Origin: Pseudomonas sp. B21_DOA
Lineage (GTDB): Bacteria; Pseudomonadota; Gammaproteobacteria; Pseudomonadales; Pseudomonadaceae
Direction of reading: 5' to 3'
Length of the DNA stretch: 64,000 nt
NCBI GenBank assembly: GCA_030544685.1
Contig: CP086683.1
Coordinates: forward strand, 1,302,001-1,366,000
A program made the translations under genes and the position numbers. The notes below the pieces were generated by a model that saw nothing but the letters and a program-made list of their open reading frames with translations, had not been told where the DNA came from and did no database searches. This document shows positions 1-63,858 of this stretch, in pieces (within the stretch, counting starts at the first letter, position 1; each line of letters opens with the position of its first letter).

Positions 1-894
1 TGGGCAAGTATTCGTCAACGCCACGCAACTGCCGTTGCAGCAAGTCGAAGGCCAGTCGTCGCGCCATGGACGTGTCGCGCTGGCGTCGGACTCGTGCACC
101 GGCGGTGACGGTTTCGCTCATCGGCAGTGCCAGATCTTCCCGCGATACCCGTAGGCAAGATCGCAGGCCGTTGGAGGACAGTGCCTGATTTTCGCTGTGG
201 ACGGTGCGGTTGTAGCAACACGGCGCAATCGCCATCTGCTGGCACCCGGTCGCGCTGGCCAGTTGCATCAAGCGGACATGCAGATCGCCGCAAGCGTGGA
301 GCGCGACGGGGGTGTGCGCAGCGTTCAACACGGCGGATGCGTCGGCCGCCAGCGCGTCCTGTTCGATGTGCAGAGCATGCAAATGGTGGCGCCGACTCAG
401 TGCCTGACCGCTGGCAACCAACGCAGGATCGTACTCGACACACGTCAGTTGCTGTCCTGCGTTGAGCAACCGCCGGCCCAGATGACCTTTGCCCGAACAC
501 CAGTCCAGCCAATGCGTCGGCTGCGATGAAAAAGCCAAACGGCTGGCAAACGCCTCGATCTGTTGCCATTTGCGCCCCGGCACATCGACATTCAAGCGGT
601 GGCCGGCGGTTTCAAGCGCATGCCCCGGCAGCGAACCGACCGCACTCAATTTTGCCGATAACTTTGCCAATGACGCGAACGGCTCAGGCGCATCGGCAAG
701 ATCAGCAGGCTGGTTATGAGCGTTCTCTGCGTCGCCCAGTGACCGCCCGCGTAGCCACGAAGACAACTCGGGGTAGGACGTTTCCCAAGGAAGCGAAAGA
801 TGCGTAAACGGACGAGGTTTCCAAAGCGCCTGATGCTTGATCAAAAAGCATCCAGCGCGCGGAAGCGGGCGAGTAGGGCCTCGCCCGTCAGCAC
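1..894 (-). CDS. Class I SAM-dependent methyltransferase, 3' end outside window, one frameshift
   Basis: The product runs off the left edge of the window. The downstream frame reads an SAM-binding motif LDWCSGKGHLGRRL, then VEYDP, ALHACGDLH and the Cys-containing IAPCCYN, so it is a class I methyltransferase of unknown substrate. The 5' end lies in another frame. From a GTG at 894 one reads LTGEALLARFRALDAF, then a stop at a T5 run (A5 on the + strand, 843-847). A sixth T joins it in frame to LIKHQALWKPRPF. I therefore see one gene with a one-base deletion, probably a sequence error. It starts 10 bp after the preceding permease gene and is likely the last gene of that operon. The GTG start is weak, with no good ribosome site. 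Confidence 0.7.
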
Positions 895-904
895 GTGGGA
901 AGTA

Positions 905-1594
905 TCAGCGGCCTTGGCAGGCATCGACGCGCAGCCAGCGCTCCAGCAGCTTGAAGCCGCGAACCAGCACGTAAGCCATGACCAGATAGAACACACCCGC
1001 GGCGAAGAAGATCTCAACCGGCAGATAAGTGCGGGCGATGATCGTGCGCGCCATGCCGGTCAGTTCCAGCAGGGTCACCGTGCTGGCCAGGGCACTGGCC
1101 TTGAGCATCAGGATCACTTCGTTGCTGTAGGCCGGCAGGCCGATCCGTGCTGCACGAGGCAGGATGATGTAGAACATCGCTTTGGGCCGGGACATGCCCA
1201 AGGCACGGGCGGCTTCGATTTCACCGGGTGGAATTGCCTGAATCGCGCCGCGCAGGATTTCAGCGATGTACGCCGCCGTATGCAGCGTCATGGTCACGGT
1301 TGCACACCAGAACGGATCGCGCAGGTACGGCCACAATGCGCTTTCACGCACCGCGTCGAACTGCGCCAGGCCGTAATAGACCAGAAACAGCTGCACCAGT
1401 AACGGTGTACCGCGGAAAAAGAAGATGTAGGCGTAAGGCAGCGAGCGCACGTACCAGCGCTTCGAAGAACGGGCGATGCCCAGCGGAATGGCGAGCAGCA
1501 GGCCGGCGATGACCGCAATGGCGACCAGTTCCAGCGTCAGGGTCGCGCCCTGCGCCAGTTTCGGCAGCCACTTGATAATGACTTCCCAGTTCAT
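905..1594 (-). CDS. Polar amino-acid ABC transporter permease, HisM type
   Basis: A 229-residue inner-membrane permease with about five hydrophobic segments. It carries the EAA loop that contacts the ATPase (EIEAARALGMSRPKAMFY, middle of the protein). Members of this family import basic or polar amino acids together with a second permease. I start it at the ATG at 1594 (MNWEVIIKW). This ATG overlaps the stop of the upstream permease gene in an ATGA of four bases, typical of translational coupling. The frame stays open upstream, but only inside the neighbouring gene. Together with the three genes above it forms an HMPQ-type importer equivalent in order to PAO1 PA5152-PA5155. The ligand cannot be read from sequence; histidine, arginine, lysine or ornithine are usual for this family. 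Confidence 0.92.
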   Translation of the reverse strand: MNWEVIIKWLPKLAQGATLTLELVAIAVIAGLLLAIPLGIARSSKRWYVRSLPYAYIFFFRGTPLLVQLFLVYYGLAQFDAVRESALWPYLRDPFWCATVTMTLHTAAYIAEILRGAIQAIPPGEIEAARALGMSRPKAMFYIILPRAARIGLPAYSNEVILMLKASALASTVTLLELTGMARTIIARTYLPVEIFFAAGVFYLVMAYVLVRGFKLLERWLRVDACQGR

Positions 1595-2286
1595 TGCGCG
1601 CTCCTCGCAAAGCCGCGAGCGGCGCGTTTTTCCAGAAAGTGCATGCCGGTCATCGCCAGTACCGTCAGGCCCAGATACATGACGGCCGCGACCATATAGA
1701 AGGTGAACGGCTGTTTCGACACGGTCACGCCGATTTGCGCGTGACGCATGATTTCTTCCAGGCCGATCACGGAAACAAGCGCGGTATCTTTCATCAAAAT
1801 CATGAACAGATTGCCCAGCCCGGGCAGGGCGATGCGCCACATCTGCGGCATGATCAGGCGGGTGAAGATCCGCCATTTCGACAGGCCCAGGGCCTGGCCG
1901 GCCTCACGATGACCTTTGGGAATGGCCAGCAGGGCGCCACGAAACACTTCCGTGGCGTAGGCGCCGAAGCACAGGCCCAGTGCGATCACACCGGCGGCAA
2001 AGGCGTTGAGTTGCAGGTCGGGGTTGCCGAAGTACTCACCGAGGGTGCGCATCAGGTTGACCGTACCGAAGTAGATCAACAGCACCCAGAGCAATTCGGG
2101 GACGCCGCGTACCAGCGTCGAATAAGTGCCGCCAAGCCATTGCAGCGGCTTGTACGGGGAAGTCTTGGCCAAGGCGCCGAGCAGGCCGAGCACCAGGCCC
2201 AGGCACAGGGCGGTGAGGGCCAGTTGGACGGTCATCAGCGCACCGGCAGCAAGCGCCGGGCCGAATCCGTAGAGGTCGATAATCAT
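1591..2286 (-). CDS. Polar amino-acid ABC transporter permease, HisQ type
   Basis: A 231-residue permease with about five membrane segments, starting MIIDLYGFGPALAAGA. The EAA-type loop is HREAGQALGLSKWRIFTRLIMP. It pairs with the HisM-type protein encoded just downstream, with a four-base ATGA overlap, to make the membrane channel of the importer. The gene follows the binding-protein gene after a 76-bp gap that contains a perfect GC hairpin (2324-2349), which may set its expression below that of the binding protein. Confidence 0.92.
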   Translation of the reverse strand: MIIDLYGFGPALAAGALMTVQLALTALCLGLVLGLLGALAKTSPYKPLQWLGGTYSTLVRGVPELLWVLLIYFGTVNLMRTLGEYFGNPDLQLNAFAAGVIALGLCFGAYATEVFRGALLAIPKGHREAGQALGLSKWRIFTRLIMPQMWRIALPGLGNLFMILMKDTALVSVIGLEEIMRHAQIGVTVSKQPFTFYMVAAVMYLGLTVLAMTGMHFLEKRAARGFARSAQ

Positions 2287-2323
2287 GGATTTCTGTTCAA
2301 ATCGCGGCAGGCAAGGTCGGAAG

Positions 2324-2349
2324 CCGGCGCCGCTGTAGCACGGCGCCGG
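2324..2349 (-). other. Intercistronic GC hairpin between binding-protein and permease genes
   Basis: CCGGCGCCG (2324-2332) and CGGCGCCGG (2341-2349) form a perfect nine-base stem with an eight-base loop. No T-run follows on the minus strand, so it is not a normal intrinsic terminator. In ABC operons such hairpins commonly protect the 3' end of the binding-protein mRNA (the malE-malF precedent). Here that role is inferred from position only. Confidence 0.6.
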
Positions 2350-2362
2350 TCCGTAGATCAGA

Positions 2363-3115
2363 TCAATAGATGCTGAACGGGAAGTACTTGTCGTTGATTT
2401 TCTTGTAGGTACCGTCAGCGACGATTTCCTTCAGCGCGGCGTTCAGCTTGTTGCGCAGTTCGTTGTCACCCTTGCGCACTGCGATGCCGATCTTGTCGCT
2501 TTCCACCACCGGGTCGCCCTTGAACTCGTAGTTCTTGCCAGCGTCGGTTTTCAGCCAGTCGTAGTTGGCGTACTTGTCGGCGAGGATCGCGTCGACACGA
2601 CCGGAGGTCAGGTCGAGGTAGGCGTTTTCCTGGGTGTCGTAGAGGCTGACCTTGATGTCGTCACCGTAGGTGTCTTCCAGCCAGGTCCCGGCCAGCGTTG
2701 CGCGCTGGGTGCCGATGGTCTTGCCCTTGAGCGAGTCCTTGTCGGTCTTGAAGTCGACGTTCTTCGGCGCGATGAACTGCAGCTTGTTCGAGTAGTACGG
2801 GTCGGTGAAGTCCACCGCGCCCTTGCGCTCGTCGGTGATCGACAGCGAGGAGATCAGGAAGTCGAACTTCTTCGCATTCAGGGCCGGGATGATGCCGTCC
2901 CAGTCGGACGTCACGACGGTGCACTCGACTTTCATCTTCGCGCACAGGGCGTCGCCGATTTCCTTGTCGAAGCCGACTACCTGGCCGCTGGCGTCTTTGT
3001 TGTTGAACGGCGGATAGGCCGCTTCGATGCCCATTTTCAGGGTCTCAGCCATGGCACCGGCGCTGAACGCCAAGGTGACGGCGGCAGCCAGGAAGACCTT
3101 TTTGAAATTCTGCAT
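2363..3115 (-). CDS. Periplasmic polar amino-acid binding protein, HisJ/LAO family
   Basis: A 250-residue SBP_bac_3 protein. The start at 3115 gives a clean Sec signal peptide (MQNFKKVFLAAAVTLAFSAG, cleavage near AMA-E) and a ribosome site GGAG seven bases upstream; the frame stays open further upstream but without these signals. The mature protein begins ETLKMGIEAAYPPFNNKD and contains VGFDKEIGDALCAKM and FTDPYYSNKLQF, the family signatures. It lies between the ATPase and the permeases and captures the ligand in the periplasm. It resembles lysine/arginine/ornithine- and histidine-binding proteins, but the ligand cannot be chosen from these motifs. Confidence 0.93.
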   Translation of the reverse strand: MQNFKKVFLAAAVTLAFSAGAMAETLKMGIEAAYPPFNNKDASGQVVGFDKEIGDALCAKMKVECTVVTSDWDGIIPALNAKKFDFLISSLSITDERKGAVDFTDPYYSNKLQFIAPKNVDFKTDKDSLKGKTIGTQRATLAGTWLEDTYGDDIKVSLYDTQENAYLDLTSGRVDAILADKYANYDWLKTDAGKNYEFKGDPVVESDKIGIAVRKGDNELRNKLNAALKEIVADGTYKKINDKYFPFSIY

Positions 3116-3128
3116 GCATGTTGCTCCG

Positions 3129-3902
3129 TTAGCGGTTGCTGGACATGAATTGTTTGCAGCGCGCCGAAAGCGGGTTATCAAACACCTGCTGTGGCGATCC
3201 TTGCTCTTCTATAAGGCCCTGATGAAGGAACACCACTTCGCTGGAGACCTGGCGGGCGAAGCCCATTTCGTGGGTCACGAGCAGCATGGTGCGGCCTTCT
3301 TCGGCCAATGCGCGGATGACACTAAGTACTTCCTGAACCATTTCCGGGTCAAGGGCGGAGGTGGGTTCGTCGAACAGGATCACCTTCGGCTGCATCGCCA
3401 ATGTGCGGGCGATGGCCGCGCGTTGTTGCTGACCGCCGGACAATTGCGCCGGATAGGCGTGGCGCTTGTCGGCGATGCCGACCTTGGCCAGCAGCGCTTC
3501 GGCGACTTCGATGGCCTCGGCCTTGCTCTGGCCGAGCACGCGGCGCGGGGCCTCGATGACGTTGTCGAGCACGCTCATGTGCGGCCACAGATTAAAGTTT
3601 TGAAATACAAAACCAATCTCCGAGCGCAGGCGATTGATCTGTTTGCCGTCGGCGGCGACCAGTTCGCCGTTCTTCGCGGCCTTGAGCTTGAGTTCTTCAC
3701 CGGCCACCAGGATCTGGCCCTGATGCGGGTTTTCCAACAGGTTGATGCAACGCAGGAACGTGGACTTGCCGGAACCGGAAGAGCCGAGGATCGAGATCAC
3801 GTCGCCGTCGCGGGCGGTCAGCGAGATGCCTTTGAGCACCTCCAGCTGTCCGTAGCGTTTGTGCAAGTTGCGGATTTCAAGCGCGGGCGTGGCCTCAGCC
3901 AT
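3129..3902 (-). CDS. Amino-acid ABC transporter ATP-binding protein, HisP type
   Basis: A 257-residue ATPase with all nucleotide-binding motifs: Walker A GSSGSGKST (near residue 38), signature LSGGQQQRAAIARTL, Walker B VILFDEPTSALDPE and switch His in LLVTHEMGF. The ATG at 3902 has GAGGA six bases upstream. It is the first gene of the minus-strand operon, followed after 13 bp by the binding protein. A possible promoter lies upstream on the minus strand (TTGGCT, 18 bp, TAGCTT, about 3965-3995), but it is weak. The long gap to the divergent permease gene also carries that gene's sigma-54 promoter. Confidence 0.94.
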   Translation of the reverse strand: MAEATPALEIRNLHKRYGQLEVLKGISLTARDGDVISILGSSGSGKSTFLRCINLLENPHQGQILVAGEELKLKAAKNGELVAADGKQINRLRSEIGFVFQNFNLWPHMSVLDNVIEAPRRVLGQSKAEAIEVAEALLAKVGIADKRHAYPAQLSGGQQQRAAIARTLAMQPKVILFDEPTSALDPEMVQEVLSVIRALAEEGRTMLLVTHEMGFARQVSSEVVFLHQGLIEEQGSPQQVFDNPLSARCKQFMSSNR

Positions 3903-4335
3903 GTGCGTTCCTCATATATGTTGCGCTCCTGCTGTTGGCGGACCTTCCTGGCGAGGCGGCCAAGCTAGCATAGCGTTTCAATGGCAGCCAACAGCGCTAC
4001 GAGCGGTAAACGGGTGGCATGTGGCGGGTTGTCGCATCGGCGCAGCAGACTGTCGCCCCATCAACAACCGAACGGGTGTTTGATCGTGCAAACCCGTGGG
4101 TGCCGCGTAAAAAAGGCGCGATGTTGCCAGCTTTGACGGGGTGTTGGAAGCGCTATCCGGCCGAACGTTCCTTATTCGCCCTTTTTCTGTGCGTCGCACA
4201 CTTTTTCTGTGTGTTTCTGGTGCGCGGATTCGTCTTGAAAGTGAGTCGCTGGGTAACGTTCTGGCGAATAGCCATTAAACTCAAGGACTTGCATCGGATG
4301 CCGAAGACCCCGGGCCTCAAGGACCTGAAACATTT

Positions 4336-4350
4336 TGGCGCAAATATTGC
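4336..4350 (+). promoter_or_regulatory. Sigma-54 (-24/-12) promoter upstream of the gabP-type gene
   Basis: TGGCGCAAATATTGC matches the -24/-12 consensus with the invariant GG and GC at the exact 12-base offset. It predicts a start point near 4362 and an 83-nt leader to the ATG at 4445. It implies activation by an enhancer-binding protein such as NtrC or CbrB; I did not identify an enhancer site. The rest of the 542-bp gap 3903-4444 shows no gene and no other clear element. Confidence 0.72.
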
Positions 4351-4444
4351 GTGCAGAATAAGGAACAGGCCGTTGGATTCTTTTTACGAGAAAGAATTTT
4401 CAGACGCGCCGGATGCACTCGCTTTCCTTGCAAAGGTAGTCTCT

Positions 4445-5836
4445 ATGAGCAGTACCCCAAGCTCCACAGGCCTCGAACAGGGGCTCAAACCGCGTCATGT
4501 GACCATGTTGTCGATCGCCGGTGTGATCGGCGCCGGTCTGTTCGTCGGCTCCGGCCACGCCATTGCTGCCGCCGGCCCGGCCGTGCTGCTGGCTTACGCC
4601 GCCGCCGGTACTCTGGTTGTGTTGGTGATGCGCATGCTCGGCGAAATGGCCGTGGCTTCGCCGGACACCGGTTCGTTTTCGACTTACGCTGACCGCGCGA
4701 TCGGTCACTGGGCCGGTTTCACCATCGGCTGGTTGTACTGGTGGTTCTGGGTACTGGTGATTCCACTGGAAGCCAACGCCGCTGCGACCATCCTGCACGC
4801 GTGGTTCCCGGGCGTGGATATTTGGGCATTCGCGCTGGTCATCACCCTGCTGCTGACCGTGACCAACCTGTTCAGCGTGAAGAACTACGGCGAGTTCGAG
4901 TTCTGGTTCGCCCTGATCAAGGTGCTGGCGATCATCGGCTTCATCGGCCTCGGCCTTGCGGCGATTTTTGGCTTCCTGCCGACCAGTCAGGTCAGCGGTG
5001 TGTCGCATCTGTTCGACAGTGGCGGTTTCTTGCCCAATGGCATGGGCGCTGTGCTGGGGGCGATCCTGACCACCATGTTCTCGTTCATGGGCACCGAGAT
5101 CGTCACCATCGCGGCGGCGGAATCGAAGGACCCAGGCAAGCAGATCTCCAAGGCGACCAACTCGGTGATCTGGCGGATCGGTCTGTTCTATCTGGTTTCG
5201 ATTTTCATCGTGGTGGCGCTGGTGCCGTGGAACGATCCTACGCTGGCCAACCTCGGCTCCTACCAGACTGTGCTTGAGCGCATGGGCATCCCGAACGCCA
5301 AGATGATTGTCGATATCGTCGTGTTGGTGGCGGTAACCAGCTGCCTGAACTCGGCGCTGTACACGTCTTCGCGCATGCTGTTCTCGCTCGGTAAGCGCGG
5401 CGATGCTCCGGCCATGTCGACCCGCACCAACAAGAGCGGCACGCCTTACTGGGCGGTGATGTTGTCGACCGGCGCAGCATTCCTCTGCACCTTCGCCAAC
5501 TATGTGGCTCCGGCCGCAGTGTTCGAGTTCCTGCTGGCCAGCTCCGGCGCCATCGCCCTGCTGGTGTACCTGGTGATCGCCTTCTCGCAACTGCGCATGC
5601 GTAAACAGCGCATGGCCCGCGGCGAAAAGATTGTCTTCAGCATGTGGCTGTTCCCGGGGCTGACCTGGGCGGTGATCATCTTCATCGTCGCCGCGCTGAC
5701 CATCATGCTGTTCCAGGAAGCCCACCGCGTGGAAATCCTCGCCACCGGTCTGCTGAGCCTGATGGTGGTGGCTGCCGGTCTGCTGGTGTCGCGTCGTCGC
5801 AAGATGGAAAAGCGTGGTGCGGTGGTGTTGAACTGA
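4445..5836 (+). CDS. gabP: APC-family amino acid permease, GABA permease type
   Basis: A 463-residue, 12-segment inner-membrane amino-acid/proton symporter. The N-terminus reads GLKPRHVTMLSIAGVIGAGLFVGSG, the AAT-subfamily (GabP/AnsP/ProY) signature, and FSFMGTEIVTIAAAESKDP marks the central substrate region. I start it at the ATG at 4445 (MSSTPSSTGLEQG); the open frame extends back to about 4019 but that part is not protein-like. It is divergent from the ABC operon and lies behind a sigma-54 promoter, which fits a nitrogen-source transporter. GABA is the closest family match, but other amino acids such as proline are possible. A strong terminator follows. Confidence 0.8.
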   Translation: MSSTPSSTGLEQGLKPRHVTMLSIAGVIGAGLFVGSGHAIAAAGPAVLLAYAAAGTLVVLVMRMLGEMAVASPDTGSFSTYADRAIGHWAGFTIGWLYWWFWVLVIPLEANAAATILHAWFPGVDIWAFALVITLLLTVTNLFSVKNYGEFEFWFALIKVLAIIGFIGLGLAAIFGFLPTSQVSGVSHLFDSGGFLPNGMGAVLGAILTTMFSFMGTEIVTIAAAESKDPGKQISKATNSVIWRIGLFYLVSIFIVVALVPWNDPTLANLGSYQTVLERMGIPNAKMIVDIVVLVAVTSCLNSALYTSSRMLFSLGKRGDAPAMSTRTNKSGTPYWAVMLSTGAAFLCTFANYVAPAAVFEFLLASSGAIALLVYLVIAFSQLRMRKQRMARGEKIVFSMWLFPGLTWAVIIFIVAALTIMLFQEAHRVEILATGLLSLMVVAAGLLVSRRRKMEKRGAVVLN

Positions 5837-5854
5837 GTCGCAACGCGTGATGTG

Positions 5855-5895
5855 AAAACGGCCGCTGTCAGGGATGACTAGCGGCCGTTTTGGTT
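5855..5895. terminator. Bidirectional intrinsic terminator between convergent genes
   Basis: AAAACGGCCGCT (5855-5866) pairs with AGCGGCCGTTTT (5880-5891). A T-run follows on + and the A-run gives U-tracts on the minus strand. It serves the gabP-type gene and the minus-strand genes ending at 5908. Confidence 0.85.
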
Positions 5896-5907
5896 TCTGA
5901 GAAGGGC

Positions 5908-6780: not shown

Positions 6781-6809
6781 GGAGTGTTCCGTCGTGCGTG
6801 GAGAAGGGC

Positions 6810-7782
6810 TCAACTGCGCGGGACTTGCCGGCCGGGTGTGTCGGGGGCCAGCGCGCCGTTCTGCAGCCAGGTCAGAGCGATGGGCCATAGTGTGGCTTGG
6901 TATGCGCTGCGAAAAAGCCGAAATGTCCGACTTGTTGTTCGCCGATGTCCTGCGGCGCGATGCGCAGGTGAGTTTTTGTCGCGTTGCTGAAGTAGCCGAG
7001 CAGGCGTTCGATCGCAGGGATTGTGCCGTAAGGATCATCGGCGAGGCTGATTGCGAGGGTCTGCGCGCGGACGTCGGCGAAGGGCAGGGCGCCTGTTTTT
7101 TCATCAGCGCGCGACCGCTTGGGCGTTGCTCGTAACGTGCGGTGGGCATGCTCCAGTCGCGGACCACGCCGGTTGGCGTGTCCTCCAGCCAACCTAGCCG
7201 TTTGCCTGGAAAATAGCCGCAGAGCAGCGCCATCAAAGGCATGACCACATGCCACTTGCCGAACATCCGCCAGCGCTGCTCGGGGGCGTAATCGCGCCAG
7301 TAAGCGAACTGCGCACCGACGGTAACCAGCCGTCGTATGACCGTGCCCGACGCTGCCAGGCCTGCCGCGCAGCCGCCGAAACTATGGGCGACTACATCGA
7401 TTGGCTGACCGGGAAACTCCCGCTGCGCCCGTTTGAGCATCGCTTCGAAATCCAGCGCGCCCCAGTCGGTCCACGAGGCACGTAGCCCTTTGATCGATTC
7501 GCGGCGTGATTCGCCAATGCCCCGGTAGTCGTAGGTCATCACGTCGAAGCCGTGACTGAACAGATAGGCTGCGAACCTTGAGTAATGGCGACAGCGCACG
7601 GAGGTGGCGGCGTTGATGATGACCACCGAGCGCTGTGGATCGTGCGAACTATGGCGCCAGGTGAAGCCGCCGAGTGCGTAGCCGTCGTCGGCAGTTTCCT
7701 TGAAGGACGTGTCTTCAGCTGCAGTCGAAACTGGTTGGCTCAACTCTGCGTCTTCCAACTCAAATGGGGGCTGACTGCCCAT
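6810..7782 (-). CDS. Alpha/beta hydrolase (COG4757-like), two frameshifts
   Basis: The ATG at 7782 begins a typical predicted hydrolase: YRGIGESRRESIKG, nucleophile elbow VVAHSFGGCAAGL, and VGAQFAYWRDYAPEQRWRMFGKW. The frame is lost near 7105-7125 and resumes in a second frame as RADEKTGALPFADVRAQTLAISLADDPYGT and on to HFGFF, which holds the catalytic His. A second break at about 6911 leads to a third frame, SAYQATLWPIALTWLQNG, the normal C-terminus, with a stop at 6810-6812. Two single-base losses restore one gene of about 320 codons. Either it is a young pseudogene or, more likely given the same pattern elsewhere in the window, the sequence has errors. The substrate is unknown. Confidence 0.65.
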
Positions 7783-7849
7783 GGCGCTTGACCTCGGTGG
7801 TTAGTTGCCAACGATAGTCTCAGCGTGGTTCGAGAACAATCCAGCCGGT

Positions 7850-21148: not shown

Positions 21149-21924
21149 TTACCGGTAAACGCCGTCCTTGCCATGCCCGGCCATGGCGCGATTGCTGCGC
21201 ACGCTGATCATCTGCCGGATATCGATCCAGTCGATGCCCTGCGCTTTGAGCTTGGGTAATTCGCGCTCCAGCACCGCGAGGGTCTGCGGGTACGGATGGC
21301 CGATCATCACCGCTGAACCCTGTTTGTGCGCCAGGGCGATCGCGGTCTGCAACTGAGTGGCAATGGCCGCTTCGGTGCGCTCATCATCAAGAAACACGTC
21401 CCGGGAAACGCTGGCCAGGTCGATTTTCTGCGCCTGCTGCGCTGCGACGGTCTGCGCGCTGGTGCGGCTGTCGACAAAGAACTTGTGCCGACGCTGCAAT
21501 TCGCCCATCAACCACGCCATCGCCGCCGGCTGGGCGGTCATGCGGCTGCCCATGTGATTGTTGATACCGGCAGTGAACGGTACTTTTTCGAACGCGGCAT
21601 TCAGGCGTTTCTGCAGCTCTTCGATGGGCAGCTCGGGGTGCCAGGCGTAAGGCCCGGTGGCCGGGTCCATGGGCATGTGCAGGATGACGATCTTGCCGGC
21701 GCGATGGGCTTCGCGGGCAAACTCGGTGGCGTGGGGGTATCAGGCATGATCGCTGCCGTGACCGGGCCGGGCAGGGCGAGCACGCGACGATCCCGGGGCA
21801 GGTTCTGCCCCAGGTCATCGATGATCAATGTCAGGTAGGCCTTGTGCGGCGTGGAGCTGGCGGGCTCTGCTTGGGCAAAACCCGCCAGACAGCACAACAG
21901 AACGCAGAGGGAACGCAGCAACAT
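21149..21924 (-). CDS. Divergent polysaccharide deacetylase (DUF610 type), one frameshift
   Basis: The ATG at 21924 begins a signal peptide (MLLRSLCVLLCCLAGFAQAE) and then KAYLTLIIDDLGQNLPRDRR and LPGPVTAAIMPDTP, the NodB-like divergent deacetylase fold. The frame is lost at a G5 run on the + strand (21733-21737). One extra C on the coding strand continues as HATEFAREAHRAGKIVILHM, PMDP and GINNHMGSRMTAQ to VYR at 21149. The single indel restores a normal protein of about 258 residues. It is two bases downstream of ctpA, as in other Pseudomonas, and acts with the envelope-protease group. Its substrate is unknown. Confidence 0.8.
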
Positions 21925-21926
21925 CC

Positions 21927-23246
21927 TCAGCGGCCGGAAGTGATGCTCAGGCCTTTGAGCAGGCTCAGGGCCTGGGCCAACTGGTAATCATCATCCTGCG
22001 GCATCGCTTTGGCCTTGCCGCCGGAACCGCTCGGTTTGTCGGCGCCGCCGTTGCCGTTGCCCAAGTGGCCTTGCAGATCGGCTTCCTTGAAGTATTCGCT
22101 GTCGGCTTCGTTGGTGATCTTCGCGCGGCGCACTTCGATGTCCGGCACGATGCCCTGGGCCTGGATCGAGCGGCCGTTCGGCGTGAAATACAGCGCGGTG
22201 GTGATCTTCAGCGCGCGGTCGTTGTTCAGCGGCAGCACGGTCTGCACCGAGCCCTTGCCGAAACTGGTGGTGCCCATGACCACGGCGCGTTTCTGGTCCT
22301 GCAGGGCGCCGGCGACGATTTCCGAAGCCGAGGCACTGCCGCCGTTGATCAGCACGACCATCGGCACCGCTTCGCTCTCGTCCTTGCCGGTGGCGGAGAA
22401 GCGCAATTCGGAGTTGGCAATGCGGCCCTTGGTGTAAACGATCAGACCTTTGGTGATGAAATGGTCGACCACTTCCACCGCCGATTGCAGCACGCCACCC
22501 GGGTTGTTGCGCAGGTCGAGAATGATGCCGTTGAGCTTCTTGCCGTTGTCCTTGCGCAGCTTGGCCAGCGCCTTGGAGACTTCTTCGCCGGTCTTGACCT
22601 GGAACTGGGTGATACGGATATAGCCGTAGCCCGATTCGAGCAGCTGCGCTTTGACGCTCTTGACCTGAATCACTGCACGGGCCAGGGTCACGTCGAATGG
22701 CGTGCCACCATCGCGAACCAGGGTCAGGGTGATTTTCTGGCCGATCTTGCCGCGCATCTTGTCGACGGCTTCGGTCATGGTCTGGCCGCGGGTTGGCTGG
22801 CCGTTGATCTTGACGATGAAGTCGCCGGCCTGGATGCCAGCCTTCGAGGCCGGGGTGTCGTCGATCGGTGAGACAACCTTGATGAAGCCGTCTTCGGCGC
22901 CGACTTCGATGCCCAGGCCGCCGAACTCACCGCTGGTGCTTTCCTGCAGTTCGGTAAAGTCTTCCGGGCCGAGGTAGGCCGAATGCGGATCGAGGTTGCT
23001 GAGCATGCCCTTGATCGCGTTTTCCAGCAGGGTCTTATCGTCCACAGGCTCGACGTACGCGGCTTTGATCCGGTCCATGACCTCGGCGAAGGTGCGCAGC
23101 TCTTCCAGCGGCAGCGGCGCCTTGGCGGTCGCGGCAGTGCCTGCCGGAGCGACAGTCGGGGCCGGTTGCGCGGCGAACGCCAGAGGCGCGCCGATCACCA
23201 GAGCGATCGTCAGGGCCAGCGAGGTAAGGCGGGACAAATGCAGCAT
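21927..23246 (-). CDS. ctpA: C-terminal processing peptidase CtpA (S41)
   Basis: A 439-residue periplasmic serine protease. It has a signal peptide (MLHLSRLTSLALTIALVIGA), a PDZ domain (about 95-170, with GGLGIEVGAEDGFIKVVSPI), and a catalytic Ser in GGSASASEIVAGAL with Lys in TSFGKGSVQTVLPL. The C-terminus carries a GNGNGGADKPSGSGGKAK linker. In Pseudomonas CtpA cuts cell-wall endopeptidases and needs a lipoprotein partner (LbcA, not in this window). The gene lies between the M23 factor and the deacetylase. Confidence 0.95.
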   Translation of the reverse strand: MLHLSRLTSLALTIALVIGAPLAFAAQPAPTVAPAGTAATAKAPLPLEELRTFAEVMDRIKAAYVEPVDDKTLLENAIKGMLSNLDPHSAYLGPEDFTELQESTSGEFGGLGIEVGAEDGFIKVVSPIDDTPASKAGIQAGDFIVKINGQPTRGQTMTEAVDKMRGKIGQKITLTLVRDGGTPFDVTLARAVIQVKSVKAQLLESGYGYIRITQFQVKTGEEVSKALAKLRKDNGKKLNGIILDLRNNPGGVLQSAVEVVDHFITKGLIVYTKGRIANSELRFSATGKDESEAVPMVVLINGGSASASEIVAGALQDQKRAVVMGTTSFGKGSVQTVLPLNNDRALKITTALYFTPNGRSIQAQGIVPDIEVRRAKITNEADSEYFKEADLQGHLGNGNGGADKPSGSGGKAKAMPQDDDYQLAQALSLLKGLSITSGR

Positions 23247-23277: not shown

Positions 23278-24559
23278 TTATCCTTGCGCACGACACCATT
23301 GCGCCGGATCACTCGGGTGACCCTGCTGACGAATTGCGAAATACAGCGCTGGCGTGTCCTGACCGCCACTGTTACCTACAGTGGAAATCGACTCGCCAGC
23401 CTTGACCACATCACCCGCCGACTTGAGCAGCGTCTGGTTGTGACCGTAAAGACTCAGAAAACCGTTGCCGTGATCGAGGATCACCAGCAGCCCGGCACCG
23501 CGCAGCCAATCGGCAAATACCACGCGCCCACCGTGTACGGCGTGCACCTGGCTGCCGGCGGAGGCGCTGATCATCACACCATCCCACTTGGTGCGGGCGT
23601 CGTCGCCACGGCTTTCACCGAAGCGTGCGAGTAATCGACCATCAACCGGCCACGGAAGTTTTCCCCGGGTTGCAGCAAAAGGCCCGCCAAAGGTTTCGCC
23701 GCTGCTCGATACCAGCGCGCCGGGGCTTGATCTGGCGGGTTTTCGTGGGGCGTCGCTGTTGTCAGCCTGCGCCTCACGCAAACGCTTTTTCCGCTTCCTG
23801 CTGGGCGATCAGCGCTTTCTGCCGCGCTTCTTCTGCCTCACGAGCCTGGCGCGCCAGGGTTTCTTCGATGGTTTTAAGGACTTTAGACAGGTCTGCCTGA
23901 TCCTGCTCGCGGGCGGCCAGCTTTTGATCGCGGGCTTTCACGTCGTCATTTAGCTTGGCGAGAACCTGCTGGCGTTCTTTGCGGACCTTCTCGAGTGCTT
24001 CGCGCTGAGTGTCGAGGTCGCTTTTCTGCACCAGCAACTGCGCCTGCTGCAGGCCAATGTCTTTTTCGACATTGGCCAGTTGGCGCAGGGTTTCGTTGAA
24101 GTTCTTCAACTGCTCCAGGCGGGCCTGGCTCAGGTAGTCGTAATAGGTGAGAGTGCGGGCAAATTTCTCGGGGTTCTGTTGATTGAGCAGCAGCTTGAGG
24201 TATTCCTGGCGACCGTTCTGGTAAGCCGCACGGGCCTGAATGGCGATCAGTCGCTGCTGTTCAGTGCGCGCGCTCTGGAGTTTTTTCTCTGCATCGAGCC
24301 GCTGCAGCTCGGATTCGCTTTTCTGCAATTCTTTCTGCAGCGCGTCGACCTGCTTCTGCAGCTTGCCCATCTCGGTTTCGGTGCCCTTGAGCTCTTTCTG
24401 CACGCCGGACTTTTCTTCCTGCAGCTTGCCCAAGAGTTTTTTCAGCTCGGCGATATCCTGGCGCGTGGCCTCCAACTGCTGTTGGGTTTGCGCGCGCTCG
24501 TCGGCGAAGGCCGGCTGGAGCAGACAGGTCAGAGCAAGGGCAATCAGGACGCGAAGCAT
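23278..24559 (-). CDS. EnvC-like M23 murein hydrolase activator, one frameshift
   Basis: The ATG at 24559 gives a signal peptide (MLRVLIALALTCLLQPAFAD) and a long coiled coil (about residues 20-260, e.g. QLEATRQDIAELKKLLGKLQ). The frame stops at 23774 after EAEKAFA. A one-base change at the + strand T5 run 23786-23790 joins it to KRLREAQADNSD and then the LytM/M23 domain: KLPWPVDGRLLARFGES, GVMISASAGSQVHAVHGGRV, LLVILDHGNGFLSLYGHNQ. The architecture (coiled coil plus C-terminal LytM) is that of EnvC, which activates amidases in cell division. The first LytM metal ligands appear lost, as in degenerate EnvC. The break is probably an error. Confidence 0.82.
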
Positions 24560-24671
24560 AGGGGCGGGCGGCACCAGGGTAAGGGACGGCCTAGTATGCC
24601 CGCCCGAGGCTGCAAAAAAACGCCCAATTGGGGCTGTGTGATAACTGGACAGAAAAACACCGCAAAACCAA

Positions 24672-24775: not shown

Positions 24776-26303
24776 TTATACGAGGATCGAAGTGCCAGTC
24801 ATCTCCGCCGGTTTTTCCAGGCCCAGCAGCATCAGCATGGTCGGTGCCACGTCCGCCAGCACGCCGCCTTCGCGCACTTTCAGGTCGCGTTTGCCGACGT
24901 AGATGAACGGCACCGGCTCGGTGGTGTGCGCGGTATGCGCCTGACCGGTGGATTCGTCGGCCATTTGCTCGACGTTGCCGTGGTCGGCCGTTATCAGCGC
25001 TTCGCCACCGACCTTGTCCAGCGCCTCGACGATGCGACCGACGCAGGTGTCCAGGCACTCGACCGCCTTCACCGCCGCGTCGAATACGCCGCTATGGCCG
25101 ACCATGTCGCCGTTGGCGTAGTTGACCACGATCACGTCGTAGCGCTGGTTTTCGATGGCGTCGACGATGCGGTCAGTGACTTCCGGGGCGCTCATTTCCG
25201 GCTGCAAGTCATAGGTAGCGACTTTCGGCGACGGGATGAGGATGCGCTCTTCGCCCGGGAACGGTTCTTCGCGACCGCCGGAGAAGAAGAAGGTCACGTG
25301 GGCATATTTCTCGGTTTCAGCGATGCGCAGCTGGGTCTTGCCGTTTTTCGCCAGGTAATCACCGAGGACGTTTTCCAGGCTGCCGGCGGCGAGGCCGACG
25401 GTGCCGGAATGCTTGCGGCGTACTGGGTCAGCATGACGAAACCGGCCAGTTTTGGCTGGCGGGCGCGCGCGAATTCCTTGAAATCGTCTTCGACGAACAC
25501 CCGGGTCAGCTCGCGAGCGCGGTCGGCACGGAAGTTCATGAACACCACAGCATCGCCGTCCTCGACTTTCACCGGCTCGCCGATAGAAGTGGCTTTGACG
25601 AATTCGTCGCTTTCGCCCCGGGCGTAGGCAGCTTCAAGACCTTCCTGAGCGGTGGCGGCGTTGAATTCGCCATTGCCGTCGACGATCAGGTTGTAGGCCT
25701 GGGCGACGCGATCCCAGCGGTTGTCACGGTCCATGGCGAAGTAGCGGCCGATGATGCTGGCGATGCGGCCCTTGCCGAGTGCCTGGAAAGTCGCGTCGAG
25801 CAGTTCGATCGACGAAGCAGCGCTTTTCGGCGGCGTGTCGCGGCCATCGAGGAAGGCGTGCAGGTAGATTTTTCGGCGCCGCGCTTGAAGGCCAGTTCGG
25901 CCATGGCGATCAGGTGATCCTGGTGGCTGTGCACGCCGCCATCGGACAGCAGCCCCATAAAGTGCACGGCTTTGCCGGCGGCCACGGCTTTATCGACAGC
26001 GGCGCAGATGGTCGGGTTTTCGAAAAACTCGCCGTCGCGGATCGCTTTGGTCACGCGGGTGAAGTCCTGATACACCACGCGCCCGGCGCCAAGGTTCATA
26101 TGGCCGACTTCGGAGTTGCCCATCTGCCCGTCCGGCAGGCCGACGTCCATGCCGCTGCCCGAAATCAAGCCGTTCGGCACCGTGGCCCACAGACGATCCA
26201 GCACAGGTTTCTTCGCCGCGAACACGGCATTGGATTCGGGGCTGTCGCTGTGACCGAAGCCGTCGAGAATCATCAGGACCAAAGGTTTGGGCGTAGTCGT
26301 CAT
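24776..26303 (-). CDS. gpmI: 2,3-bisphosphoglycerate-independent phosphoglycerate mutase, two frameshifts
   Basis: A glycolytic enzyme of about 509 residues that interconverts 3- and 2-phosphoglycerate with Mn. The N-terminal block is [20 protein letters not shown] with nucleophile Ser in [13 protein letters not shown]. The frame breaks at a T5 run on + (25869-25873): adding one base gives [19 protein letters not shown]. It breaks again at about 25392: adding one base gives [20 protein letters not shown]. The last part carries [11 protein letters not shown] and [11 protein letters not shown] with the metal-binding His and Asp residues. Because this step is essential and I see no second mutase here, both breaks are probably sequencing errors. 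Confidence 0.88.
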
Positions 26304-26395
26304 GGAATCCACTCGTGGCTGATAAAGAAGAGGGCGATGGAAAACGGAGTTGGAGTTTAAAGCGAAGTTCCGACCGCGTCACCGCCGGACGGGGT

Positions 26396-28660: not shown

Positions 28661-28841
28661 TCTGAACTTCATCGTTACCTCCGACGTTTTTTAACGGCAT
28701 TTCCCACCGCTGCCGTTGACCTTTCCCACCCCCAGCCACCGCGAGCGCGCGCTATCGTCCGCTCTCACGCTCAAACGGCAGGATGCCGACCACAAGCTGC
28801 CCTTGCGCACCTGCAGGGGAAGCTCTTCAAGGATGAAAAAC

Positions 28842-30835
28842 ATGCCGGTCAAACCACCCCGCGGCGGCAGTAGCCGCGTTGATATCGATACACCAGCCAG
28901 CCCTGCTCGACCGACGGACCTGGACACCGCATTGGTGGATTTACCAGGCCGTCGTGGCTTCGAGACGGGCGCTTCGCTCGATCCTTTGCTGCGCCCAGCT
29001 CCGTCATCCATTGGTGCCGATATCGAAGCCGTCTCGCCGTCGCATACCGTAGTGGTTCACGCTGCTCCCCTTGATGCACGGCCGATTGCTCCGGACGTGT
29101 CGCTTGCTGCCTATGTCACTGACGGTCGCGCAATACGTGCGCCAGTCAACAATGAAGGTCTTCGGGTTATTAACAAACGCACTTACGCTGACCTGCAAAT
29201 CGGCGGCATGGCTATGGTTGCTGCTGATCCGCATACCGGACTGTACCGGGCCCGTCGACCAAGCGAGTTGCTGCCTTCAGGTCCGGTGCTGCTGCGCGAC
29301 GCCGCGAGCGGTCTCTGGCACCCTCGCCTGGTTGTTGAACAGGCGACCCGAGCTCAGGTGAAAAAATATCTGCCGGAAGCGACCGATCAGCAGGCTGACG
29401 ACTTCATTGCTCTGATCGGCGACAAAGATATTGCAGACGTGGAGCTCAGGCGCGTTCAGATCGGGTTTTCCGAGTTGGACAGCAAGATCAGGCTTCGGGA
29501 GCTTTCGGTCAATCAGTATTCTGACTCCTACACAGCAGTTAGTGCCGTGGGAGCCAAGCTGCGGCGACTGTACAAGTGGTTGGGGAGCCTGACGAACGGG
29601 TCTACAAAAATGAGCGGCTGACGGGTTTCAAACTGGAACTCGATCTCGATTCGTGGCCTGTTCGAGACCTTCCATCACGTCAGTTCAGGTCCATTTCCGA
29701 CCTCACGCTACGAGCGGGATGGGAGCCGGATGTACACATATTTCTGGCTCAATTTCCCAATGTTGAATCGCTGAAGATCGCGGCGCCACTCGGACCGCCT
29801 TCAATAAACCGGCCGTCGGGGCAGATTTATTTCCACGCGCGTGTTAACCCGCCTCTGGTTGCACAATTCAAAAAGCTTGCCGGGTTGCGAGAGCTCAATT
29901 TGGAAGAATGTGCGCTGAGGCCGGATTTTTCTGTGGCAGGGATGAACGAATTGCGTGTACTAAAGCTCGGCAGCTCATATGCAGGTCGAGATCTTTCGGC
30001 GTTGGTCGGTCAGCTGTCCGACTTGCGACGCTTACAGGTGCTTGAGTTGCAGCGCAATGTATTGAGAGCCGCCCCCGATGTTTCCGACATGGCCGAGCTG
30101 CGATATCTCGATCTGACAGATACCGGCATATTCAAGCCGCCAGCCGGGCTTGATTCCGAGAGAGGCCGAAGCATCTGGAAGTATTGAAGCTGGCTGACAA
30201 CCCTCTGCACTTTGCGCCGTCAGTCAAGACACTGACCGCGTTGCGAGAACTGGATCTGTCCAATACCGGCCTGGAAAAATTCCCGGAAGGCATTACCCCG
30301 CAACTTCCAACGACAGTATTGGATCTTTCAAACAATCGGATCAAATCGATTCCCGAGTCCGTTGAGCTCAGAGCGGGATTTAATCTCAACGGCAACCCGA
30401 TAAACGATCCGTCTTCTCTTCGACGTCTGATCCATGCCCGTATCAAGACTGGCAGCGATATTTGGCTCGCAGAGCAACATACTGATCGGTCGGCAGCGCT
30501 CTGGTTGCGAAATGTTCCGCAAGCGCAGGCGGCTGAAAAGGCCAGACTCTGGGATAGTTTCGAAGGTCCTTGGAGTACGCTGCTGAACGGTATACGCACG
30601 CTGAGTCGCACGCCCGAATTTCATGTTGAGCGCCCGCTTTTACAGCGTCGAGTCTGGCGGGTTCTGGAAAATTTCAGTCAGGCGGATGCGGTGGAGCGAG
30701 CGTGGCTGAGCACAATCGTCGAATTTGAATCAAGTCCTGGGAAAATGCTCGATTGGCTGGAAGCGGAAATACGAAAATATGACGGGGGCGGCAGAACCCG
30801 CCGTTACATCACCGGCCCAAGCGCCCACGGCTTGA
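28842..30835 (+). pseudogene. Leucine-rich-repeat protein with partial NEL-like C-terminus, broken by frameshifts
   Basis: Starts at the ATG at 28842 (MPVKPPRGGSSRVD) with AAGG nine bases upstream. The N-terminal region (GLYRARRPSELLPSGPVLLR, YLPEATDQQADDFIALIGD) resembles that of large Pseudomonas LRR/NEL effector-like proteins. One G missing at 29582-29585 breaks YKWLG/EPDERVYKNERLTG. LRRs follow (LRELNLEECAL, LRVLKLG, LQVLELQRN, LRYLDLTDTGIF). Another break near 30150-30165 is followed by KHLEVLKLADNPL and LRELDLSNTGLEKFPEG. The end (ALWLRNVPQAQAAEKARLWD, RRVWRVLE) matches the start of an NEL ubiquitin-ligase domain, but no catalytic Cys is present. The stop at 30835 assumes a third indel; without it the frame runs through repeats to 31323. 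Confidence 0.55.
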
Positions 30836-30861
30836 ATAATTCGTTGGGGCGCAGTGGCGGT

Positions 30862-31062
30862 GTAAAAGCGGGAATCCCTGACCTGCCTGTATCAGGGTTC
30901 CCAAAAGTGTGGGCTTCGCGTATCGCGTCGGCCCGGTATAAAGAGGGAACCCCGGCCTGCCTGTACCAAGGATCCCAAAAGGTTGGGCTCGCCGCGTTGC
31001 GCTGTGAGCCCGATGTAAAGAGGGGAATCCCCGGCCTGCCTGTACCAAGGTCCCCGAAACGG
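30862..31062. repeat. Three diverged tandem repeats of about 74-78 bp
   Basis: Units start at 30862, 30936 and 31014. Each begins GTAAARMGGGAAYCCC-like sequence followed by CCTGCCTGTA-CCAAGG, then a GGGCT...AGCCC stem in the first two units. The third unit is cut after its first half. Each half can form its own hairpin. The repeats follow the broken LRR gene and are unlike the REP families in this window. Confidence 0.7.
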
Positions 31063-31148
31063 GTGGTGAAACGAATCACCTGTAGAAGGTATTGCAGGCG
31101 CCGTGCCAGATTTTCATCTGTTGAAACAAAAAAGCGCCTGAGAGACGC

Positions 31149-31175
31149 GAAAGCCCCCGAATTCGGGGCTTTCAG
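31149..31175 (+). terminator. Terminator-like hairpin after the repeats
   Basis: GAAAGCCCC (31149-31157) pairs with GGGGCTTTC (31165-31173). The downstream sequence AGTTATT is only weakly T-rich. Confidence 0.5.
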
Positions 31176-31279
31176 TTATTCAAAGATCGGACTTCCAACG
31201 CTTTCAGCTGTGGCGGCGACGATGCCGCTATGCGCGATCACAGGTCATCGTGCATTGATGCGGTGCACTGAGAAGCCAA

Positions 31280-32850: not shown

Positions 32851-33932
32851 GTCGATGTGGCTCCTTGTTCCAGTGGCAGGAAGATCGAGAAGGTGGTGTG
32901 GCCTGGATGGCTCTCACACTCGATCAGGCCCTGGTGCTGACTGATGATGTTCTGGGTAATGGCCAGGCCCAGCCCGGTACCGTCCGGGCGACCGCTGACC
33001 ATCGGAAAGAAAATGGTTTCCTGCAGTTCCGCCGGGATGCCCGGGCCGTTGTCGATGATCTCGATCTTGGTCACCAGACGATGGCGGATGTGGCCGATGG
33101 TGAACTGGCGCATCGCGCGGGTGCGCAGGCTGATGCGGCCCAGACGCAGCTCGTTCTGGCTGCTGATCGCCTGCATCGCGTTACGCACGATGTTCAGCAC
33201 CGCCTGAATCATTTGTTCGCGGTCGATCAATACGTCGGGAATGCTCGGATCGTAATCGCGCACCAGAGTGATGCAGCCCTGGCTTTCGGCTTCCACCAGT
33301 TGGCAGACGCGTTCGAGGACTTCGTGAACGTTGCACATGGCCAGCGAGGGCAATTTATTCGAGCCGAGCATGCGATCGACCAGATTGCGCAGGCGATCGG
33401 CCTCTTCAATGATCACATTGGTGTAATCGCGCAAGCTTTCCTCCGGCAGCTCGCGCGCCAGCAGCTGCGCAGCACCACGGATGCCGCCGAGAGGATTCTT
33501 GATTTCGTGGGCGAGGCCGCGCACCAGCATTTTGCTGGTTTCCTGCTTGGACAGCTGCGCCTCTTCCTTGGTGATCCGCAGCAGGCGGTCACGCGGGTGC
33601 ACTTCGAGCAAGAGCAAGGTCGCGCCGTTGCTCAGGATCGGCGTGACCGCGTAATCCACAGTCAGGGTCTGGCCGGTGAGGGCGGTGAGCATTGCTTCGC
33701 GCTTGGTGAACGGGTGCGCCTGCTCAACCGCCTGGCGCAGGGAATTGAGCGCCTCGGGAGACTCGGTGAACAGCTCACTGATGAACTGGCCATGGCTGCG
33801 CTGACCGCTGACGGCCAGCAACATTTCCGCCGCCGGGTTCATGTACTCCAGACGCAGTTCGGCGTCGAGCAGGATGGTCGCCGTGGTCAGGTTGTCGAGC
33901 AGCAAACGGTGAATAGCGTCGCTTATGGTCAT
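32847..33932 (-). CDS. ntrB: Nitrogen regulation sensor kinase NtrB
   Basis: A 361-residue cytosolic histidine kinase/phosphatase. The PAS domain spans about 10-110 (LDAELRLEYMNPAAEMLLAV). The phospho-accepting His lies in LVRGLAHEIKNPLGGIRG; ATP lid motifs are NIVRNAMQAI, DNGPGIPAE and GTGLGLAI. The start at 33932 (MTISDAIHRLLLDNL) fits family length; the frame is open further upstream without protein-like sequence. It is regulated by PII (GlnK, not here) in known systems. Confidence 0.96.
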   Translation of the reverse strand: MTISDAIHRLLLDNLTTATILLDAELRLEYMNPAAEMLLAVSGQRSHGQFISELFTESPEALNSLRQAVEQAHPFTKREAMLTALTGQTLTVDYAVTPILSNGATLLLLEVHPRDRLLRITKEEAQLSKQETSKMLVRGLAHEIKNPLGGIRGAAQLLARELPEESLRDYTNVIIEEADRLRNLVDRMLGSNKLPSLAMCNVHEVLERVCQLVEAESQGCITLVRDYDPSIPDVLIDREQMIQAVLNIVRNAMQAISSQNELRLGRISLRTRAMRQFTIGHIRHRLVTKIEIIDNGPGIPAELQETIFFPMVSGRPDGTGLGLAITQNIISQHQGLIECESHPGHTTFSIFLPLEQGATST

Positions 33933-34162
33933 CTGGACCCCTTTTGGAGCAAGGCGTGCGCGAGAACAAAGCGCTGATGTCGGGAAAATGCAAAAACCAA
34001 ACCAAGGCTCCGAAAAGAAGCGCTTGAGCCCTGAAACAGGCGTTTGACGCGCGTTTGTATGGCACGAAGCCAGCTCAAACGGGAAATTTCGAACCAAAAT
34101 GGGTTGGGTTGTGGGCGTGATGCAGTTTAGTGCACCAATAGAGTGCGAATGCCTGGAAGACG

Positions 34163-34784
34163 TTAAAAGAAGCGCAGAAATGGATTTTTCGGTTCTTCAG
34201 GTTTGTCCTTGAGCGGGCATTCCGGGCGTACGCCGTAGTCGTCGGCGACACAGGGTTTGACCTGGCGTTTCTGCGCCAGGAAATGCGTAGCATGTGGAAC
34301 GGCTGGTTGGCGGTGCGTTCCACGGTGCGCCCGGCGGCATCGAGGATTTCGATCGAAAGGCTGTGGCTGCCGCGATCAATGTTGCTCAGTGCAAATACCG
34401 GGCTGACGCCGGGCTCGCCCGTGGCCTTGCCATCCAGCAACAGGCGATAACGATGGCCGCTTTGCAGGCCGGGTTCGCTGGTGACACTGACGATCAGCTC
34501 GCCGGCGCTGCTGCGCAAAGTAGCATCGGGCTCCGGGATCAGAATGCGCAGCATGTCGTAATGAAAGGGCGCTGGTTCAGCGGATTTTTCGCCGTAGTGA
34601 TCGGCGCTGCGGTGTTGGCAGGGACCGCCATGCGATTGCTCGTCGCGATCGGCACTCGCTTGGCGTTGGCGCGTGGCTGGTCGGTATAGACGCGGTTGCC
34701 CTGTGCGTCGATGTAGGTAAAGACCTCCGCCGAGGCGGACGTCGACATCAACACCAGGATGAGTATCAGTCCGGCACGGATCAT
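34163..34784 (-). CDS. DUF4124 periplasmic protein, two frameshifts
   Basis: The ATG at 34784 gives a signal peptide (MIRAGLILILVLMSTSASAE) and the DUF4124 core VFTYIDAQGNRVYTDQPR. The frame breaks at 34564-34566 (A3 on +). One more base gives RPFHYDMLRILIPEPDATLR and a beta domain (SGHRYRLLLDGKATGEPGVS, NIDRGSHSLSIEILDAAGRT). A second break at 34279-34280 continues, with one base added, as RISLAQKRQVKPCVADDYGV to the stop at 34163. The corrected protein of about 207 residues parallels its upstream neighbour, with which it overlaps by four bases. Function unknown; these paired genes sit between glnA and ntrB in pseudomonads. Confidence 0.75.
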
Positions 34785-57593: not shown

Positions 57594-57598
57594 ATATG

Positions 57599-59435: not shown

Positions 59436-59450
59436 TACGCTTTTGCTTCA

Positions 59451-59540
59451 TGTGGGAGCGAGCTTGCTCGCGAAGAGGCCGGCACAGTCAACATTCGTGT
59501 CGGCAGACAGATTGCTTTCGCGAGCAAGCTCGCTCCCACA
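59451..59540. repeat. Paired REP element (REPIN)
   Basis: TGTGGGAGCGAGCTTGCTCG and CGAGCAAGCTCGCTCCCACA inverted around 44 bases, inside the hut operon between hutU and the permease gene. Intra-operon placement may cause differential mRNA stability. Confidence 0.9.
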
Positions 59541-59598
59541 GAAAAGCAGCTCCACCGATGCTCAGTGAACCCGAATAACAATCCACAGAGGTTGAATC

Positions 59599-61071: not shown

Positions 61072-61142
61072 TCTGGACGTGGACCAGGCTGGATGCCTCT
61101 TGAACTGCCGTAAGCCCATTCATGATTAGGAGCGTCACGACA

Positions 61143-62111: not shown

Positions 62112-62122
62112 GTCAGGTTTGC

Positions 62123-62145
62123 CCGGCTGCCAGCACGGCAGCCGG
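62123..62145 (+). other. Intercistronic GC hairpin between hutX and hutW
   Basis: CCGGCTGCC (62123-62131) and GGCAGCCGG (62137-62145) form a perfect nine-base stem with a five-base loop and no T-run. The layout is the same as in the amino-acid ABC operon at 2324-2349. Confidence 0.6.
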
Positions 62146-62180
62146 ACGCTTGATCGCAACCCCTTGATTGAGAGTCCCTT

Positions 62181-63032
62181 ATGTTTCCCGAAAGCTTTAC
62201 CTTTTCCATCGCCGACTGGGTCAACGGTTGGGTCGATTCGCTGGTGACCAACTACGGCGACGTGTTCCGGCATATCTCCGACACGCTGCTGTGGGCCATC
62301 GTCAGTCTCGAAGGTTTGCTGCGTGCGGCGCCGTGGTGGTTGATGCTGGCAATCGTCGGTGTCATCGCCTGGCACGCCACGCGCAAAGTCGTCACCACCG
62401 CCGTGATTGTCGGCTTGCTGTTTCTGGTGGGTGCGGTTGGCCTCTGGGACAAGCTCATGCAGACCCTGGCGCTGATGATGGTCGCGACGATCATTTCGGT
62501 GCTGATCGGCATCCCGCTGGGGATCCTCTCGGCGCGCAGCAACCGCCTGCGTTCGGTGCTGATGCCGCTGCTCGATATCATGCAGACGATGCCGAGTTTC
62601 GTTTATCTGATTCCGGTGCTGATGCTCTTTGGCCTGGGCAAGGTGCCGGCGATTTTCGCCACGGTGATCTACGCCGCGCCGCCGCTGATTCGCCTGACCG
62701 ACCTCGGTATTCGTCAGGTTGACGGCGAAGTGATGGAGGCGATCAACGCCTTCGGCGCCAACCGCTGGCAGCAACTGTTCGGCGTGCAACTGCCGCTGGC
62801 GCTGCCGAGCATCATGGCCGGGATCAACCAGACCACGATGATGGCCCTTTCGATGGTGGTGATCGCTTCGATGATCGGCGCCCGTGGCCTCGGTGAAGAC
62901 GTGCTGGTGGGCATTCAGACCCTCAACGTCGGCCGTGGTCTCGAAGCCGGGCTGGCGATCGTGATTCTCGCGGTGGTCATCGACCGCATCACTCAAGCGT
63001 ACGGCCGGCCACGTCACGAGGTGAGCAAATGA
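62181..63032 (+). CDS. hutW: Histidine ABC transporter permease HutW
   Basis: A 283-residue permease with a long N-terminal part ([20 protein letters not shown]) and about seven membrane segments. EAA loop: [20 protein letters not shown]. ProW-like. Overlaps hutV by four bases (ATGA). Confidence 0.93.
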
Positions 63033-63858
63033 GCAACGCAAGCGTGAGCAAGATCGAAGTGCGCAACGTCTTCAAGATTTTCGGCAACCGCGCCAAGGAT
63101 GCGCTGGCCATGGTCGGCCAGGGCAAGAGCAAGGATCAAGTGCTCAACGAAACCGGTTGCGTGGTCGGCGTGAATGACTTGTCGCTGAGCATCGGCACTG
63201 GCGAAATCTTCGTGATCATGGGCCTGTCCGGTTCCGGCAAATCCACCCTGGTGCGCCACTTCAATCGCCTGATCGACCCCACCAGCGGGGCGATTCTGGT
63301 CGATGGCGAGGACATCCTGCAGTACGACATGGACGCCCTGCGCGAATTTCGCCGGCACAAGATCAGCATGGTGTTCCAGAGCTTCGGCCTGCTGCCGCAC
63401 AAGAGCGTGCTCGATAACGTCGCCTACGGTCTGAAAGTGCGCGGCGAGAGCAAGCAGATCTGCGCCGAACGCGCGCTGCACTGGATCAACACCGTCGGTC
63501 TCAAAGGCTATGAAAACAAATACCCGCACCAGCTCTCCGGCGGCATGCGTCAGCGCGTCGGCCTCGCCCGCGCCTTGGCGGCGGACACCGACATCATTCT
63601 GATGGACGAAGCGTTCAGTGCGCTGGACCCGCTGATCCGCGCCGAGATGCAGGACCAGTTGCTCGAACTGCAGAAGACCCTGCACAAGACCATCGTCTTC
63701 ATCACCCACGACCTCGACGAAGCCGTGCGCATCGGCAATCGCATCGCGATTCTCAAGGATGGCCGGTTGATCCAGGTGGGCACGCCAGAGAGATCCTGCA
63801 TTCACCGGCCGATGAGTATGTCGACCGGTTCGTGCAGCGGCGGGCGGCGGTGGTCTGA
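63029..63858 (+). CDS. hutV: Histidine ABC transporter ATP-binding protein HutV, one frameshift near the end
   Basis: An ATPase of about 276 residues when corrected. Walker [15 protein letters not shown], signature [15 protein letters not shown], Walker [14 protein letters not shown], switch [13 protein letters not shown]. ProV-like but without CBS domains. After LIQVGTP the frame shifts at 63786-63788. Adding one base gives [20 protein letters not shown] and a stop at 63856-63858, the usual C-terminus; without it the tail is unlike the family and ends at 63880. Probably a sequence error, since the rest is intact. Confidence 0.9.

Follow-up and report, generated by a model that had tools for sequence, protein, structure and literature searches.

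The window, which is the whole 64,000-nucleotide stretch of DNA that was analysed, spans positions 1302001-1366000 of contig 1 in the 5,940,484-base single-contig genome of Pseudomonas sp. B21_DOA, and eight of its genes are broken by changes of reading frame. Completeness of this assembly is 95.3%, compared to 99-100% in the 24 relatives of the same genus that were searched. The nearest named relatives of a piece of one broken gene, gpmI, belong to Pseudomonas, with P. thivervalensis at the top (97%). We aligned the window with the corresponding stretch in five relatives (G019, G011, G016, G010 and G005).

Six of the broken genes lie on the reverse strand. A gene with a methyltransferase domain (2..957; PF13679 in the intact relative) crosses the window edge and is in pieces in two frames. 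Three of three relatives place a break at about 845; this is near the start of the gene (about residue 26-38 of 411-421), and its support comes mainly from the N-terminal piece of one relative. An alpha/beta hydrolase gene (6804..7824; Hydrolase_4/Abhydrolase in the intact relative) is broken at about 7098 and again at about 6910. In each of the next three genes the breaks are borne out by all five relatives. A divergent polysaccharide deacetylase gene (21152..21930; PF04748 in the intact relative) is broken at 21738, and the gene of an EnvC-type M23 factor (23281..24574), one piece of which matches EnvC and whose intact relative carries PF01551, is broken at about 23791. The gene for cofactor-independent phosphoglycerate mutase, gpmI (24779..26312), is in three frame pieces, with breaks at about 25868 and 25392. 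These pieces, 90-99% identical to the relatives, give three TIGR01307 matches, and since no other match occurs in the genome, this is the only copy found. A REP-like short repeat at about 24700-24785 matches many dispersed places in B21_DOA and related genomes. The last reverse-strand gene encodes a DUF4124 protein (34166..34784; PF13511 in the intact relative) and is broken at about 34586 and 34281, as seen against five of five relatives. On the forward strand, a choline/betaine-type ABC transporter ATPase gene (63029..63855), named hutV in the preliminary description, is broken at 63788, near its 3' end, again with support from five of five relatives. It is 92-95% identical to the relatives, and its open part matches TIGR01186 and TIGR03415.

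The eighth gene, at 28716..30784 on the forward strand, encodes a leucine-rich repeat (LRR) protein with a partial NEL-type stretch and consists of three frame pieces with boundaries at about 29582 and 30155. It has too few orthologues for the ortholog test, and its pieces were searched apart. They match a single open gene of G019 in order, at 39-58% identity, and these collinear matches bear out both breaks; searches with the pieces in G016, G010 and G005 gave no match. Truncation of the gene at its 3' end was considered and rejected, as the homologues in G019 stop at about the same place. The site itself is variable, with three tandem open homologues of 1116, 663 and 832 amino acids in G019 (L095-L097 region). 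Past the LRR homology, the tail of the third piece's open reading frame (about 30860-31200) contains imperfect repeats and matches DNA of G011, G016 and G005 at 51-63%; it is probably a different element from the LRR gene.

The 12 breaks in eight genes that had been claimed from the sequence are thus all present, within about 35 nt of where they had been placed. Ten of them, in seven genes, are confirmed by intact orthologues from three to five relatives, and the other two are those of the LRR gene. A protein-based comparison found breaks in eight of the window's 51 gene groups, one of which, a histidine kinase, was later dropped, compared to 0, 0, 2, 2 and 0 in the corresponding stretch of G019, G011, G016, G010 and G005, respectively, so the breaks exceed what chance would give. 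A frame-aware alignment sized nine of the ten ortholog-tested breaks and left the one at 845 unsized; both hydrolase breaks were supported by four of four relatives, and the other seven sites by five of five. The claim that nearly all breaks need one added base holds for eight of the nine sized sites, which are one base short (modulo 3), and fails at 23791, which is two bases short. Similarly, the statement that the breaks fall in short single-letter runs applies to seven of the ten ortholog-tested breaks, which have a run of at least five within 6 nt, but not to those at 25392, 34281 and 63788, where the longest run is two or three and none of four occurs within 6 nt.

The raw output of the frame-aware alignment was larger, 18 events in 13 of 54 gene groups of the window, and the relatives' own rows show similar events in 4 to 10 groups each. 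We left out nine events (1400, 4359, 7803, 24621, 28476, 33952, 37018, 37242 and 61100) because they stem from over-extended starts, upstream DNA, relatives that disagree, or a shadow open reading frame. Candidates rejected as further breaks include the events near 24621 and 37272, both upstream of genes, and a histidine kinase gene (32850-34220), in which a break is seen by three of five relatives while one aligns straight through and the relatives disagree on the N-terminal side.

Breaks of this kind are found throughout the chromosome. We sampled six 60-kb blocks around rpoB, dnaA, ftsZ, nuoG, leuS and dnaE, a sample therefore centred on housekeeping genes, in B21_DOA, G019, G010 and G005, and counted internal breaks only, with all reference genomes agreeing and the same script applied to the relatives. 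In these blocks, B21_DOA has 42 broken genes out of 262, compared to 3 of 259 in G019, 2 of 241 in G010 and 2 of 250 in G005. The 48 break events in 266,892 nt of tested coding DNA comprise 46 that are one base short, one that is two short and one with an extra base, a density of about one per 5.6 kb (0.18 per kb). The window, with 10 breaks in about 55 kb tested, compares with these 48 in 267 kb of coding DNA elsewhere. The preliminary attribution to residual errors of the assembly is supported by this equal density, with the refinement that the errors are a property of the whole genome and not of the window. A looser count over 15 blocks including the window, with G019 as the sole reference, gave 153 events in 126 of 623 genes, 128 of them one base short, with heterogeneity among blocks at p = 0.088. 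With a coding share of about 88% assumed for the genome, extrapolation would give about 900 broken frames genome-wide.

The raw total of unanimous frame-changing indels was rejected as a discriminator, as divergent relatives carry as many: there are 137 in B21_DOA, 127 in G010, 105 in G005 and 28 in G019, G010 and G005 being the more divergent, and in the stretch of the window 25 in G010 compared to 18 in B21_DOA. The block containing dnaA (947001-1007000) is sparse, with one of the 48 breaks and 6 of the 137 indels, whereas neighbouring blocks are not. The idea that errors thin out towards dnaA, an effect that read depth could produce, was not borne out across the 15 blocks (Spearman 0.39, p = 0.15).

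A run of at least four is found no more than 6 nt away from 49 of the 58 coding breaks (the 48 and the 10 of the window), compared to 6.3 expected by chance. When coding and other DNA are taken together, unanimous deletions of one base total 104, and 71 of them are at most 2 nt from such a run, compared to 6.7 by chance; the same class accounts for 0 of 13 in G019, 11 of 59 in G010 and 7 of 40 in G005. The runs beside breaks are mostly 3-6 long, and the deleted base is C or G in 71 of the 104. The lost base could not be mapped for 10 of the 58 coding breaks. For 45 coding deletions it was mapped, and in 22 of these it corresponds to a base that the relatives carry singly or as a pair. When k-mers were searched for a special motif at these short-run deletions, the hits were mostly runs of four or five letters. 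Lone-base losses number 26 over all DNA. In 21 of them the neighbours on either side are the identical letter, and in 18 the loss leaves behind a run of at least four, an outcome seen in 1 of 27, 1 of 12 and 0 of 4 such losses in relatives. One interpretation is that substitution had produced a longer run in this lineage that was then read one short; alternatively, the interrupting base may have been skipped.

Genes that a living cell could hardly lose are among those affected. They include rpoB, dnaE, secY, murF and pyrG, which are generally counted as essential. Among the four genomes searched, rpoB and dnaE are each split in B21_DOA alone and whole in the three relatives; dnaA, ftsZ, nuoG and leuS are intact in B21_DOA. 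A family search via the intact relative, performed for 30 of the 42 broken genes, matched 27, and the families include SecY, MurF, PBP2, RodA, LipA, MnmA, NuoF, NuoN, PyrG, RpoS, GlnD and ClpA, as well as LpxD, with its break near the 3' end, and an FtsI-like protein under the curated cut-off. The relatives are not free of breaks, since nuoG is split in G019 (L142 near 11011) and G010 has a dnaE paralogue in two pieces; the public G019 genome may carry an error of its own at nuoG. The case for residual error had been made from the doubly broken gpmI, and it is strengthened by the absence of any match to a gpmA-type mutase (TIGR01258), a possible backup, in the B21_DOA genome and seven relatives, and by the breaks in rpoB and dnaE. 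Phosphoglycerate mutase has been described as essential in P. syringae (PMC2964296).

On the sequence comparisons above, the breaks are almost certainly consensus errors of the assembly, genome-wide in extent, and not decay, a reading to which we assign a probability of about 97%. Sequencing mistakes are indicated by breaks that occur all over the genome, even in essential genes, and are rare in relatives. The assembly was most likely made from long reads only or insufficiently polished. Its consensus tends to lack one base within or next to single-letter runs, which splits reading frames, and such errors are scattered over the whole chromosome. Genuine pseudogene decay, in which the strain truly lost these genes through indel mutation, can point to the real indels that occur in relatives and to the LRR and DUF4124 genes, which are less conserved and have two breaks each. 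Nevertheless, it is very improbable, as it requires single-copy genes held to be essential to have broken simultaneously; in a living lineage, rpoB and gpmI would have been purged of such deletions. Nor is coding DNA depleted of deletions near runs. The ratio of coding to other DNA is 40:21 for one-base deletions near runs and 1653:932 for the runs themselves (p = 0.89), so the deletions are distributed as the runs are and were not filtered by selection; their disregard of gene boundaries bears out the preliminary preference for errors over decay. By comparison, deletions near runs in G005 divide 0:6 against runs at 1698:1293 (p = 0.007); G010 (3:2) and G019 (none) have too few to tell. Decay is also opposed by the absence of internal premature in-frame stops (0 in 262 genes). 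In broken genes the constraint ratio, which decay should raise, stands a little above that of other genes without reaching significance: 0.163 in broken genes and 0.144 in other genes when pooled, with medians of 0.127 and 0.092 (p = 0.13).

A mixture, in which nearly all breaks are errors and one or a few in the window (in the LRR gene, the DUF4124 gene or at a run-less site) are real, is unlikely but deserves more weight than wholesale decay. Clear coding breaks number 2-3 in each set of 240-260 genes from the relatives, so in B21_DOA, too, roughly one break per 100 genes should be real or have a separate cause. The three sites at 25392, 34281 and 63788 lack the usual run. However, two of those three are in gpmI and the 92-95% identical ABC transporter ATPase gene, and lone-base losses of a similar kind occur across the genome. 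It is correspondingly doubtful that one or more genes of the window were genuinely lost in the recent past, as a mark of the strain's adaptation; if so, the LRR gene with the partial NEL-type stretch or the DUF4124 gene would be the likeliest. Programmed frameshifting or phase variation could be proposed because the breaks adjoin homopolymers, like slip sites, but this is scarcely credible: the relatives read the same genes in one frame and do not conserve the break, the adjoining runs are short, and scores of unrelated genes, including housekeeping genes, would have to undergo recoding in a single species.

Claims of pseudogenes, truncated proteins or missing functions drawn from the B21_DOA genome are all unsafe, given that roughly a sixth of the genes in the sampled blocks are broken. 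The comparison of coding with other DNA for deletions near runs can be made without reads from a handful of relatives, and can be used to flag such genomes in bulk.

Similar patterns have been described for other genomes. In the survey made with GeneTack, the authors expect breaks that are confirmed against intact homologues and unshared by relatives to be sequencing errors and not true indels (PMC3711429); that work is a survey covering older genomes, while ours concerns one assembly. The Homopolish study describes most systematic nanopore errors as indels within homopolymers, with 151-5298 pseudogenes remaining in R9.4 genomes after Racon-Medaka polishing (PMC8011154). It worked with genomes for which the truth was known, whereas B21_DOA was compared with relatives only. 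A further parallel is in the account of Kastor, where a nanopore-only draft of Pseudomonas syringae 508 is given as having 1101 frameshifted genes compared to 3967 complete ones, and where indels in the first reference set are mostly deletions (1708 vs 900) that follow runs, in most cases of four to five bases (PMC12007338). As in that draft, the errors in B21_DOA fragment genes, are dominated by deletions and are associated with runs; broken genes make up a somewhat smaller share here (42 of 262). The runs reported with Kastor are mostly of A and T (PMC12007338), unlike the C- and G-rich deletions of B21_DOA.
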